NCBI GenBank assembly: GCA_024685975.1
Contig: JAIBDZ010000006.1
Location: 34,410 to 98,409 of the forward strand
Reading direction: 5' to 3'
DNA from: Piscirickettsiaceae bacterium
Lineage (GTDB): Bacteria > Pseudomonadota > Gammaproteobacteria > Nitrosococcales > Methylophagaceae
DNA: 64,000 nucleotides
The position numbers and the translations under genes were made by a program. The notes under the pieces were generated by a model that saw nothing but the letters and a program-made list of their open reading frames with translations, was not told where the DNA came from and ran no database searches. Numbering within the stretch: the first letter of the stretch is position 1; each line of letters begins with the position of its first letter. Below are positions 13,133-59,904 of the stretch, in pieces.

Positions 13133-14239
13133 ATGGCAACGGCTTTAATGAAAGATCAACTTGATGCTAATGCGGTTGCCAAAATAACAGCGTTAGTAGA
13201 GCAAGTATTGCCCAACTTTGATGGCGTGGGGTTCCAACGACACGCGACAATGGGTTTAAATGAATTGGAGTTAAAGCAACGAGTTGAGCAGATTAGCGAA
13301 CAGCTACATCAGCATTTAGCTGTTTCATATGAAGAGGCGGCGACAGCTTTACTGGATTTGCCGATCCCAGATCCTGCGACAGCAGATTTAGGCGAGTTTA
13401 CTTTTTGGCCGATATTAGATTATGTTGCCAAACATGGCTTAGCATCGCCTGAATTATCGTTAGCGACCTTAAAAAAATTAACACATTACTTTACTGCTGA
13501 ATTTGCCATTCGTCCTTATATTGAAAAGCATGAACATTTGGCATTGCAGACACTGCTGCTGTGGACAGAAGATGAGTCGGAGCATGTCAGACGTTTGGCT
13601 TCAGAAGGGATACGCCCCAGATTACCTTGGGGAAAATACCTCACACGATTTATTGATGATCCGACGCCTTTATTGCCCGTGTTGAATCAATTAAAAGATG
13701 ATGACAGTTTGTATGTTCGGCGTTCCGTTGCCAATAACCTTAACGATATTGCAAAAGATCATCCAGATAAAGTCATTACATGGTGTCAAGATTGGCTACA
13801 GGACATTACGGCAGAACGACAATGGTTGATTAAGCATGGTTTAAGAACATTGGTTAAACAAGGTCATCCAGATGTTTTTCCTTTGTTGGGATTTACAGCA
13901 GAGCCTAAAATTACAACGCAGCTTGCCCTGTCTTCAACAGAGTTGACGTTAGGTGAAAGCATAGAATTCAATGTCTCTTTAACATCATTATCTGAACAAG
14001 TTCAGCAGTTTGTCGTTGATTATAAGATTGCATTCATGAAATCAAATGGTCAATACAGTCATAAAGTGTTTAAGGGCAAAAATATTCAAATCCTGCCGAA
14101 AGAAAACTATTTATGGCAAAAAAAACATGTTATTAAACCCGTCACAACCAGAACGTATTATTCAGGCATGCACTCGGTCTCATTACTGATAAATGGTCAA
14201 ACTATGGGGGAACCTATGGCGTTTTATTTGAAGGTATAA
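13133..14239 (+). CDS. AlkD-like DNA alkylation repair (HEAT-like) protein
   Basis: HVRRLASEGIRPRLPWGKYL...DDSLYVRRSVANNLNDIAKDHPDKV HEAT-like motifs. Confidence 0.82.
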   Translation: MATALMKDQLDANAVAKITALVEQVLPNFDGVGFQRHATMGLNELELKQRVEQISEQLHQHLAVSYEEAATALLDLPIPDPATADLGEFTFWPILDYVAKHGLASPELSLATLKKLTHYFTAEFAIRPYIEKHEHLALQTLLLWTEDESEHVRRLASEGIRPRLPWGKYLTRFIDDPTPLLPVLNQLKDDDSLYVRRSVANNLNDIAKDHPDKVITWCQDWLQDITAERQWLIKHGLRTLVKQGHPDVFPLLGFTAEPKITTQLALSSTELTLGESIEFNVSLTSLSEQVQQFVVDYKIAFMKSNGQYSHKVFKGKNIQILPKENYLWQKKHVIKPVTTRTYYSGMHSVSLLINGQTMGEPMAFYLKV

Positions 14240-14364
14240 AGCCTGAATGCCATAATAAAGCGCAAATTAAATAGCGATATGTACTAAAGTACAATATACA
14301 GCGTCAAGAATAGTTTATATTCTGTCACCATGAGATATGTTTTATATCTTTAATAATTTTAATC

Positions 14365-14436
14365 GAGCCAAGTTTGGTGTGAACCAAGTACGGAAAGTTA
14401 CAGGTCTTTAGGATTGATAAAGATGGCTGTGCTGCA
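14365..14436 (+). ncRNA. Candidate cyclic-di-GMP-I (GEMM-I-like) riboswitch aptamer, copy 1
   Basis: P1 AGCCA/TGGCT; P2 TTTGGT-GTGA-ACCAAG with GNRA loop; ACGGAAAGTTACAGG junction; P3 TCTTTA/TAAAGA; AGATGGCTG 3' motif; 22 nt before the ATG. Confidence 0.72.
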
Positions 14437-14457
14437 TTTTCTTCTAAGGAAAATGAA

Positions 14458-15072
14458 ATGAAAAAGTTAGGTCTTTTAGCAGCAACATTACTATTATCTA
14501 CACAAGCACAATCAGCGATCATGAGTGTATCTGGTGCTGGTAGTATCATTCTTCCAGTAAGCGTTCAAGAAGATACGCCAACAAATAGCCAGCAAGAAGG
14601 TTTTGATGAACAACAAGGCGTTGTATTAAGCAGTGCTATCAATATTGATGGCGGTACTATTGCAGCAGGTACGCGTGTTGATAGTCATCTTATCTTTTTA
14701 AATACACAAGGTAATACTAGAGCTGATGCAACAGCACAATGGACATTCAGTGGCGATATTCTAGGTGTTATGTCTCAAAGTAATGGCGCACAGTTAGACG
14801 ATAGCAACAGTCAATTAGCTTTTTTTAATGATTATTTCACTACAGGTTCAAGCTTACCTTTTAGTGCTGCTGGCTTAGAAAGCAATAATATGGCAACTAA
14901 CGATGGTTATATGTTTAGTGGAGCGACTTTAGATTTACGTATGGTCGTGACAGAGCCAGGTGATTGGATTCGTGTTGTTACCGTTTCTGAAGTACCTGTT
15001 CCTGCTGCTTTATGGTTATTTGCTCCAGCTCTTATGGGCTTTTTAGGTTTACGCAGAAAAAATAAAGTATAA
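14458..15072 (+). CDS. Secreted protein with PEP-CTERM/VPxPA-type sorting tail
   Basis: Signal peptide plus C-terminal VPVPAALWLFAPALMGFLGLRRKNKV. Confidence 0.8.
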   Translation: MKKLGLLAATLLLSTQAQSAIMSVSGAGSIILPVSVQEDTPTNSQQEGFDEQQGVVLSSAINIDGGTIAAGTRVDSHLIFLNTQGNTRADATAQWTFSGDILGVMSQSNGAQLDDSNSQLAFFNDYFTTGSSLPFSAAGLESNNMATNDGYMFSGATLDLRMVVTEPGDWIRVVTVSEVPVPAALWLFAPALMGFLGLRRKNKV

Positions 15073-15101
15073 ATTAAACTTTTAAAAAAGTAGTACAGAC
15101 T

Positions 15102-15134
15102 AAAGCCATGGCATATGCCATGGCTTTTTTTTTT
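15102..15134 (+). terminator. Intrinsic terminator
   Basis: AAAGCCATGGCA/TGCCATGGCTTT followed by long T tract. Confidence 0.9.
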
Positions 15135-15224
15135 CGAAAAAGACAGCTGTCACCAAGATGTAGTAAAAAAGTCATGCCCTGGTCGTGGGCGTCTCTTATC
15201 CTATGCATTGTGGTCTCTTTTGAA

Positions 15225-15294
15225 TAGCCAACCTTGATGCGAATCAAGTTCGGAAAATCACAGGTCTTTTCTATAAAGATGGCTGGATTACAGG
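15225..15294 (+). ncRNA. Candidate cyclic-di-GMP-I (GEMM-I-like) riboswitch aptamer, copy 2
   Basis: P1 AGCCA/TGGCT; P2 CTTGAT-GCGA-ATCAAG; TTCGGAAAATCACAGG; P3 TCTTT/AAAGA; AGATGGCTGGATTAC; compensatory change in P2 relative to copy 1. Confidence 0.75.
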
Positions 15295-15311
15295 TGGAGT
15301 AGGACAGCATC

Positions 15312-15764
15312 ATGAAGACAATATTTTTGCTTTTAGTAGCAATAATAACTTTACCCACGCAAGCAGCAGTGATCTATGGTACCAGCGTGAGCATTGCTTC
15401 AAGTGTGCAAGAAAATCAGTCGATTGAATTAGATAGTGAAATCTTAGGTTTTCGGATTGATAAGAAAAGATATTTCAAGCTAGTGTCACATGAGTTATTT
15501 ACTGCGTTTAATCACGATGTTGTTTTAAGTGAAAAGTTGGCTTTGGGTTTTGTAGAATTTAAAAATAATAACTTTAATAACGATGATAATAATTTGATAA
15601 TGGGCGAATTATTAAAGCTTCGTAGATACGTGATAGAACAGGATGACTGGCTTGATGATAAGGTGATTGCATCGCCAACCGTGTCTATACCGGCTGCATT
15701 ATGGTTGTTTGCACCCGTGTTAGTTGGTTTTATGGGCTTACCTAAACAATCGAGGCAAGCATAA
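15312..15764 (+). CDS. Small secreted protein with PEP-CTERM-like tail
   Basis: Signal peptide; C-terminal VSIPAALWLFAPVLVGFMGLPKQSRQA. Confidence 0.72.
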   Translation: MKTIFLLLVAIITLPTQAAVIYGTSVSIASSVQENQSIELDSEILGFRIDKKRYFKLVSHELFTAFNHDVVLSEKLALGFVEFKNNNFNNDDNNLIMGELLKLRRYVIEQDDWLDDKVIASPTVSIPAALWLFAPVLVGFMGLPKQSRQA

Positions 15765-36265: not shown

Positions 36266-36350
36266 TGGTACCGAGGGCGAGAATCGAACTCGCACTTCCG
36301 AAGAAACCGGATTTTGAATCCGGCGCGTCTACCAGTTCCGCCACCCCGGC
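36266..36350 (-). tRNA. tRNA-Leu (CAA)
   Basis: Reverse complement GCCGGGGTGGCGGAACTGGTAGACGCGCCGGATTCAAAATCCGG...GAGTTCGATTCTCGCCCTCGGTACCA; CAA in anticodon loop, long variable arm, encoded CCA. Confidence 0.95.
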
Positions 36351-59411: not shown

Positions 59412-59533
59412 GGTATTGGCTTATAAATAAGCAAAATCAATAACCTTGACACGGCATAATACAAACGCTTTAGAAGTCGCATTCTCTTCGTCAACGTTAT
59501 TATCGCCCGCCGCAATAAGGTCGCTATACTTAT

Positions 59534-59706
59534 TAGGCCGGTCTCCGGACTCATGAGGTTAAAAACACGTCACCTTCCCATCATAAAGACAGTGGCGATG
59601 AAGACGGTTTAACTCAATTACCGTTGCGGGGGCAGTGTTGGCCTTGTCTGATGACGCACCAACTTCCCGATTATCCCTCTATCTAAGAATAAAAGAGGGC
59701 ACCTAA
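59534..59706 (-). ncRNA. Cobalamin riboswitch upstream of btuB-cobO
   Basis: Reverse complement has GGGAAGTTGGTGCG..., CTGCCCCCGCAACGGTA, B12-box GCCACTGTCT, GGGAAGGTGACG, GAGTCCGGAGACCGGCC. Confidence 0.95.
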
Positions 59707-59904
59707 TAAAAGTAGGTCCAGAGAGTAGAGAATCCCCCTTCTCTTGTCAACGAGCCCTTAATACTCATTGATGAAGTGGCATCGTTAAGCTTTGTGTTGT
59801 TAATACGGCATAAAACCTGCATAAATCATCACCATGACGCACTATTGTCGTTGTAAAAACAAAAGTTTAGCTGGGTTTTTTCAATAAGGTAGTCAACAAA
59901 AACA

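Follow-up and report, generated by a model that had tools for sequence, protein, structure and literature searches.

Putative c-di-GMP-I riboswitches in front of exosortase-tagged surface-protein genes in Methylophagaceae, with a candidate translational switch at ligand contact C92

INTRODUCTION

Two leader RNAs lie close together in a 64,000-nucleotide stretch of a Methylophagaceae genome (the whole stretch analyzed, hereafter the window), each followed by a gene for a small secreted protein. An earlier note on this DNA had read them as c-di-GMP-I-like leaders, possibly of a divergent aptamer subclass, in front of PEP-CTERM-like proteins. This raises the question of whether the leaders are c-di-GMP-I riboswitches and, if so, which ligand they would bind and how binding would reach the genes behind them. 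The note had proposed a covariance-model search, a search for an exosortase gene, and a genome-wide search for further such leaders; all three were run here, and each returned matches. Our comparisons cover the source genome (1.62 Mb, 68% complete), a family set of 36 Methylophagaceae genomes with 88 aptamers, and a sample of 274 gammaproteobacterial genomes. The basic link between c-di-GMP riboswitches and PEP-CTERM genes is not new, since Table 4 of a published account of M. nitratireducenticrescens GP59 has four of seven c-di-GMP riboswitches flanking PEP/VPLPA-CTERM genes near exopolysaccharide genes (PMC12530212).

RESULTS

The leaders are c-di-GMP-I aptamers with canonical ligand contacts

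Both leaders match the Rfam c-di-GMP-I model (RF01051; gathering score, 35 bits) where the earlier note had placed them: copy 1 at 14357 to 14439 (+ strand; 40.7 bits) and copy 2 at 15217 to 15295 (+ strand; 46.4 bits). The c-di-GMP-I-GGC variant model (RF03167) gives 36.5 and 46.8 bits, respectively, both below its own gathering score of 59. The ligand contacts named for Vc1 and Vc2 (PMC4744006), mapped via the Rfam alignment, are canonical in both copies: G20, A47, and C92 fall at 14367, 14394, and 14435 in copy 1 and at 15227, 15254, and 15291 in copy 2. The sequence CGGAAA, read in place of CGCAAA and previously taken as a hint of a divergent aptamer subclass, reflects C to G at position 46 along with G to C at position 21, and the base pair is therefore kept. 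Because this C21-G46 swap is compensatory and the contacts are canonical, a changed ligand is not indicated, and we rejected a shift in ligand specificity as the leading interpretation.

Across the family set, G20 is found in all 88 aptamers and C92 in 80 (by index), while A47, inferred from CGGAAA or CGCAAA, is found in 84. The mark of cGAMP (GEMM-Ib) aptamers, which we take to be A at position 20, thus occurs in neither window copy and in none of the 88. U replaces C92 (by index) in seven family aptamers (L011, L072, L084, L095, L099, L100, and L102); in L100, it is accompanied by a G to A change in the partner strand of the masking helix described below. Among other Gammaproteobacteria, seven aptamers read AGC at positions 20 to 22 (by index), possibly an A20 cGAMP-like mark.

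P2 forms a covarying stem capped by a GNRA loop, and the compensatory change between the two copies to which the note had pointed is real. In an alignment of 84 non-identical family aptamers, the P2 pairs are standard in 80 to 84 sequences, with many types of compensatory change, and the pairs of both P2 and P3 vary yet stay paired in most sequences. The proposal that AGCCA and TGGCT close a P1 did not survive: in the structure given by Rfam and covariation, the junction and the first strand of the C21-G46/C22-G45 helix account for AGCC, and the 3′ strand of P3, including the tetraloop-receptor bulge, accounts for TGGCT. Minimum-energy folding of the single leaders is not significant (z = -0.63 and -0.25); support for the structure comes from the covariance model and covariation, not from minimum-energy folding alone. 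The covariance model places both leaders in the c-di-GMP-I family, and they would be expected to bind c-di-GMP. We file them as variant rather than typical members of RF01051, with scores above the curated threshold and canonical contacts, and with a P1 that fails as described next.

The family lacks a detectable canonical P1

In the canonical register (-6,+1), Methylophagaceae aptamers form 1.65 of 4 pairs, against 1.71 in the dealt control (z = -0.7), whereas aptamers of other Gammaproteobacteria form 2.42 of 4 (z = 4.3 over dealt controls). We looked in the family for a P1 in the canonical or a shifted register, at the level of pairs, registers, and helices; no signal was found, and no other register rises. 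In the Rfam alignment, P1 pairs are violated in copy 1; none is violated in copy 2, where weak U-A/U-G pairs are possible. The closing stem, a consensus element of RF01051 whose strength varies among validated members, is at chance level in this family. Vc2 loses ligand binding without P1, yet P1 is often undetectable before ligand binding and was not detected in Cd1 (PMC9262584). Binding of c-di-GMP without P1 is therefore plausible in this family, if unproven.

The downstream genes encode secreted proteins with PEP-CTERM-type tails

Copy 1 precedes a gene for a secreted PEP-CTERM-type protein of 204 amino acids (14458 to 15072, + strand; tail SEVPVPAALWLFAPALMGFLGLRRKNKV, tail model E = 1.5e-18), and copy 2 precedes a paralogous gene for a secreted protein of 150 amino acids (15312 to 15764, + strand; degraded tail TVSIPAALWLFAPVLVGFMGLPKQSRQA, E = 4.8e-16). 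Both products have a signal peptide, and they end in VPVPAALWLFAPALMGFLGLRRKNKV and VSIPAALWLFAPVLVGFMGLPKQSRQA, respectively. The copy 1 protein scores 13.3 bits, below the curated cut-offs of both TIGR02595 and PF07589 (16 and 20.7). Its tail aligns with those of the other riboswitch-linked genes of the genome, sharing with them the PxPA motif, the hydrophobic stretch, and the basic end, and the genome encodes an exosortase. The copy 2 protein has no NCBIfam or Pfam match, TIGR02595 and PF07589 included, and its tail lacks the first proline (SIP for PxP) and the basic RRK cluster. The earlier description of two secreted PEP-CTERM-like proteins thus holds for the signal peptides and the VPxPA-type tails, with the qualification that the second tail is degraded.

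The first gene is followed by an intrinsic terminator-like hairpin read from the sequence (GCCATGGCATATGCCATGGC plus a T run; 15107 to 15133, + strand). A search of the genome contigs with the protein encoded at 13133 to 14236 returned nothing. Elsewhere in the window are a cobalamin riboswitch (59519 to 59721, - strand; 111.8 bits) and a tRNA gene (36269 to 36350, - strand; 56.5 bits).

Riboswitch-PEP units recur throughout the genome and family

We detected 12 RF01051 matches above the cut-off in the source genome. Eleven directly precede a PEP-CTERM-type gene (hypergeometric probability ~2e-23, assuming roughly 1550 genes), and the tails encoded by these 11 genes are of the VPxPAAxxLFAPALLGFxGxRRK type. 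By tail profile, the genome has 16 strong tails, and five of these belong to genes without a riboswitch. One riboswitch-linked PEP-CTERM gene (L011/L111; G000:C18:18710-19514) has ATA where the start codon is expected and is possibly decaying.

Within the family set, 81 of the 88 aptamers precede a PEP-CTERM-type gene; an automatic rule assigned 80, and the other is upstream of a gene for a long protein whose tail fell outside the stretch first taken. Of the remaining seven, four are free-standing, two are canonical aptamers that precede a different secreted protein, and the last precedes a short membrane protein. Judged by gene order and predicted tails, almost every c-di-GMP-I aptamer of the Methylophagaceae, which are marine methanol-eaters, is in front of a gene for a putative exosortase-tagged surface protein.

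The free-standing aptamers occur in four genomes (L001:1501-1587, at G000:C7:213941-214027; L034; L054; and L105). In each case, a promoter-like TTGAC/-10 pair ends just 5′ of the aptamer, and an intrinsic terminator lies within ~15 nt on the 3′ side. No same-strand gene follows; a convergent gene is AhpF-like in three (by appearance) and helicase-like in L054. These aptamers look like stand-alone c-di-GMP-binding small RNAs.

Riboswitch-PEP units co-occur with the exosortase XrtD

The source genome encodes the VPLPA-CTERM-specific exosortase XrtD (TIGR04152; 561 bits, cut-off 400). The gene sits in an exopolysaccharide (EPS) locus of ~30 kb, together with genes for PrsT, a PEP-CTERM-associated ATPase, a tyrosine kinase, and chain-length and export proteins; PrsT scores just over its model cut-off, and the other four score below theirs. 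One riboswitch-PEP unit forms the head of this locus. The genome also holds 18 GGDEF matches.

Riboswitch-PEP units are found in 14 of the 15 family genomes with XrtD and in 3 of the 21 without it. Among genomes at least 90% complete, the counts are 8 of 8 and 0 of 15 (P = 2e-6, a value that overstates independence because the genomes are related). Among named genomes, XrtD relatives occur in Methylophaga and Methylophaga-like assemblies. In one genome without XrtD (G013, 99% complete), the riboswitch-linked gene (L040) has a frameshifted tail and no normal start.

A palindromic element marks a candidate regulon promoter

Upstream of copy 1 lies a palindromic promoter element, TGTACTAAAGTACAAT (14280 to 14295, + strand), which matches CTAGTACCAAAGTACAATAG with zero mismatches. 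This palindrome is found upstream of 44 of the 88 family aptamers, and five of its six exact copies in the genome stand at riboswitch-PEP units. Across the 44 aligned promoters, a -35-like TAGACA adjoins the palindrome, and TAnnnT falls at a fixed +38 to +43. At copy 1, this distance predicts a -10 box, TATTCT, at 14318 to 14323 (+ strand), which would place the transcription start near 14330. From its spacing, the promoter reads as a sigma-70 type with a dedicated site for a putative activator and is a candidate regulon promoter. Other PEP-CTERM systems use PrsK/PrsR with sigma-54 promoters (PMC1569441). Such control was considered here and rejected: the best PrsR match scores 344 to 348 bits where 502.6 are needed, and the spacing fits a sigma-70 type -10.

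A predicted masking helix begins at the ligand-contact base C92

The start codon lies 14 to 50 nt past most aptamers (18 to 50 nt after C92), and most loci have neither a terminator between aptamer and start codon nor room for one. We find instead, in 43 of 75 loci, a helix of at least 6 bp whose 5′ arm begins exactly at C92. When arms were dealt among loci, the mean was 18.9 (maximum 29 in 200 rounds), and when the 3′ region was shuffled, it was 9.1 (maximum 16). Helices of at least 7 bp peak at C92: 39 loci start there, against 33 at the next base, 32 at the base before, and 6 at two bases before. They occur in 38% of family aptamers and in 0 of 80 outside the family.

The helices that start at C92 are of 6 to 9 bp, and their 3′ arm covers the Shine-Dalgarno sequence, the start codon, or codon 5. 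Counting helices of at least 5 bp, the 3′ arm ends three bases before the start codon, over the Shine-Dalgarno sequence, in 20 loci, at the start codon in 10, and at codon 5 in 17. Each docking point shows compensatory changes. One Shine-Dalgarno locus has replaced C-G with U-A at C92 itself; in start-codon loci, the fourth and fifth pairs change from A-U to U-A; and in codon-5 loci, the fifth pair changes from G-C to A-U.

In folding models, holding C92 out costs ~3.4 kcal/mol. The mean helix probability falls from 0.88 in the free RNA to 0.53 with C92 held out and to 0.27 with positions 91 to 93 held out. Blocking C92 alone raises the mean modeled accessibility of the ribosome site from 0.48 to 0.52, with a gain above 0.1 in 14 of 72 loci, and the 3′ arm still forms about half the time. 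The amplitude of switching is therefore uncertain.

For copy 1, the predicted platform is a 9-bp helix over the Shine-Dalgarno sequence (14435 to 14455, + strand), in which CATTTTCTT (14435 to 14443, from C92) pairs with AGGAAAATG (14447 to 14455). Its modeled pairing probability is 0.99, and it is 0.87 without C92 and 0.57 without positions 91 to 93. Copy 2 is among the 32 of 75 loci without a 6-bp helix starting at C92. Its minimum-energy and centroid folds predict a different platform (15278 to 15310, + strand), in which GUAG...CAGCAUC, immediately 5′ of the start codon, pairs with the 3′ strand of P3 and with UUAC, the segment containing C92. Here (L007), modeled ribosome-site accessibility is 0.26 in the free RNA and 0.46 with C92 held out.

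DISCUSSION

We propose that each leader is a c-di-GMP-I riboswitch that would govern translation of one VPxPA-CTERM protein, presumed to be a substrate of XrtD. Without c-di-GMP, the RNA from C92 on would pair with the ribosome-binding site, the start codon, or early codons and keep translation low. With c-di-GMP, C92 would pair with a ligand guanine, and the masking helix would lose its first G-C pair and open, making an ON switch; this direction is suggested because the ligand and the masking helix both need C92. At high c-di-GMP, as in biofilm life, more matrix or surface proteins would then be made for processing by XrtD, alongside the products of the exopolysaccharide locus. Positive regulation is reported for Vc1, another c-di-GMP-I element (PMC4744006). 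We regard such a translational ON switch over XrtD-substrate genes as the best explanation overall and as probably correct. Counting against it are the small modeled gain in accessibility when C92 alone is blocked, the 32 of 75 loci that have no 6-bp helix from C92, the dependence of Vc2 binding on P1 (PMC9262584), and the five tail-bearing genes of the source genome that have no riboswitch. The fuller claim is that Methylophagaceae c-di-GMP-I riboswitches lost P1, that C92 itself is the switch, held either by the ligand or by the masking strand, with three interchangeable docking points, and that the whole set of exosortase substrates has come under one second messenger. On that claim, we consider the balance to be even.

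One alternative is ordinary c-di-GMP-I switching through a weak P1, as other bacteria do it, with the C92 helix as a by-product of A/T-rich leaders. Other Gammaproteobacteria have a P1 that covaries (z = 4.3); P1 often escapes detection before the ligand binds (PMC9262584), and it has no violated pair in the Rfam alignment of copy 2. The family register is nevertheless indistinguishable from its dealt control (1.65 against 1.71 of 4 pairs, compared with 2.42 elsewhere), and no other register rises. The C92 helix also exceeds composition-matched controls, carries compensatory changes, and reaches at least 7 bp in 38% of aptamers inside the family and 0% outside, so we think this explanation unlikely. 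An OFF switch, in which the ligand lowers translation, strikes us as rather improbable. C92 can pair with only one partner at a time, ligand or masking strand, and binding should thus favor an open ribosome site. A translational OFF role is described for Vc2 (PMC9262584), and the account of M. nitratireducenticrescens gives one of four PEP-linked leaders as higher in planktonic cells, but it gives the other three as higher in biofilm (PMC12530212).

We attach very little probability to a change of ligand to cGAMP or another dinucleotide. Both copies carry the canonical G20, A47, and C92, and A20 occurs in 0 of 88 family aptamers; on the other side are the U at position 92 in 7 of the 88 and the slightly higher score of copy 2 with RF03167 (46.8 bits), which is still below the gathering score of 59. 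It is just as improbable, in our judgment, that the leaders are decaying or non-functional and were simply carried along by duplication of PEP-CTERM genes. Individual units do look worn: the copy 2 tail is degraded, L011 has no normal start codon, and G013, which has no XrtD, has a frameshifted gene (L040). Yet the conserved contacts, the covariation of P2 and P3 across 84 aptamers, and the strict co-occurrence with XrtD argue for selection across the family.

Outside Methylophagaceae, seven aptamers in the 274-genome sample precede PEP-CTERM-type genes. C21 is present in all seven and in 9 of 74 others (Fisher's exact test, P = 3e-6). That C21-G46 marks PEP-linked aptamers outside the family suggests either that the lineage is related or that the unit has spread horizontally. 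Two XrtD genomes outside the family (G048 and G050) have no riboswitch match; the pairing is therefore not a general rule of XrtD. One genome of another gammaproteobacterial family (G206) holds fifteen c-di-GMP-I riboswitches (L199, L228, L230, and L233 among them), which precede diverse secreted-protein or lipoprotein genes and not PEP-CTERM genes.

If the ON-switch reading is true, the exosortase substrates of this family answer to c-di-GMP largely via RNA, with one switch per gene, and protein sorting is tied directly to the biofilm decision. A single ligand-contact base would couple binding to translation. The family would also show that a c-di-GMP-I design can function without P1, the stem whose loss reportedly abolishes binding in Vc2 (PMC9262584). 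At ~110 nt, switches this compact would lend themselves readily to testing and to use as c-di-GMP sensors.

The account of GP59 describes the same type of association, but for one genome and with relative transcript levels; the expression platform, P1, XrtD co-occurrence, the promoter element, and the family-wide extent lie outside its passages considered here (PMC12530212). In the non-subscription literature searched, we found none that deals with loss of P1, a platform built on C92, or an XrtD-linked, family-wide regulon. The PEP-CTERM/exosortase system described in PMC1569441 resembles the present one in its exosortase, its PEP-CTERM-type tails, its EPS locus with PrsT, and its single-gene units with long leaders. 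It differs in that the leader here holds a riboswitch, the promoter has a palindrome and a sigma-70 type -10, and no PrsR match exceeds the cut-off. The GEMM-Ib (cGAMP) riboswitches of Geobacter share the overall aptamer fold, but the aptamers here have G20 and lack the cGAMP mark. The closest parallels are with Vc1 and Vc2 of Vibrio cholerae, which share the RF01051 match, the GNRA loop of P2, the P3 tetraloop receptor, and G20, A47, and C92; as with Vc1 and gbpA, the aptamer stands in front of a surface-protein gene. Unlike Vc1 and Vc2, the Methylophagaceae aptamers have C21-G46 in place of G21-C46 and no conserved P1, and their masking helix starts at C92 itself and ends very near the start codon.
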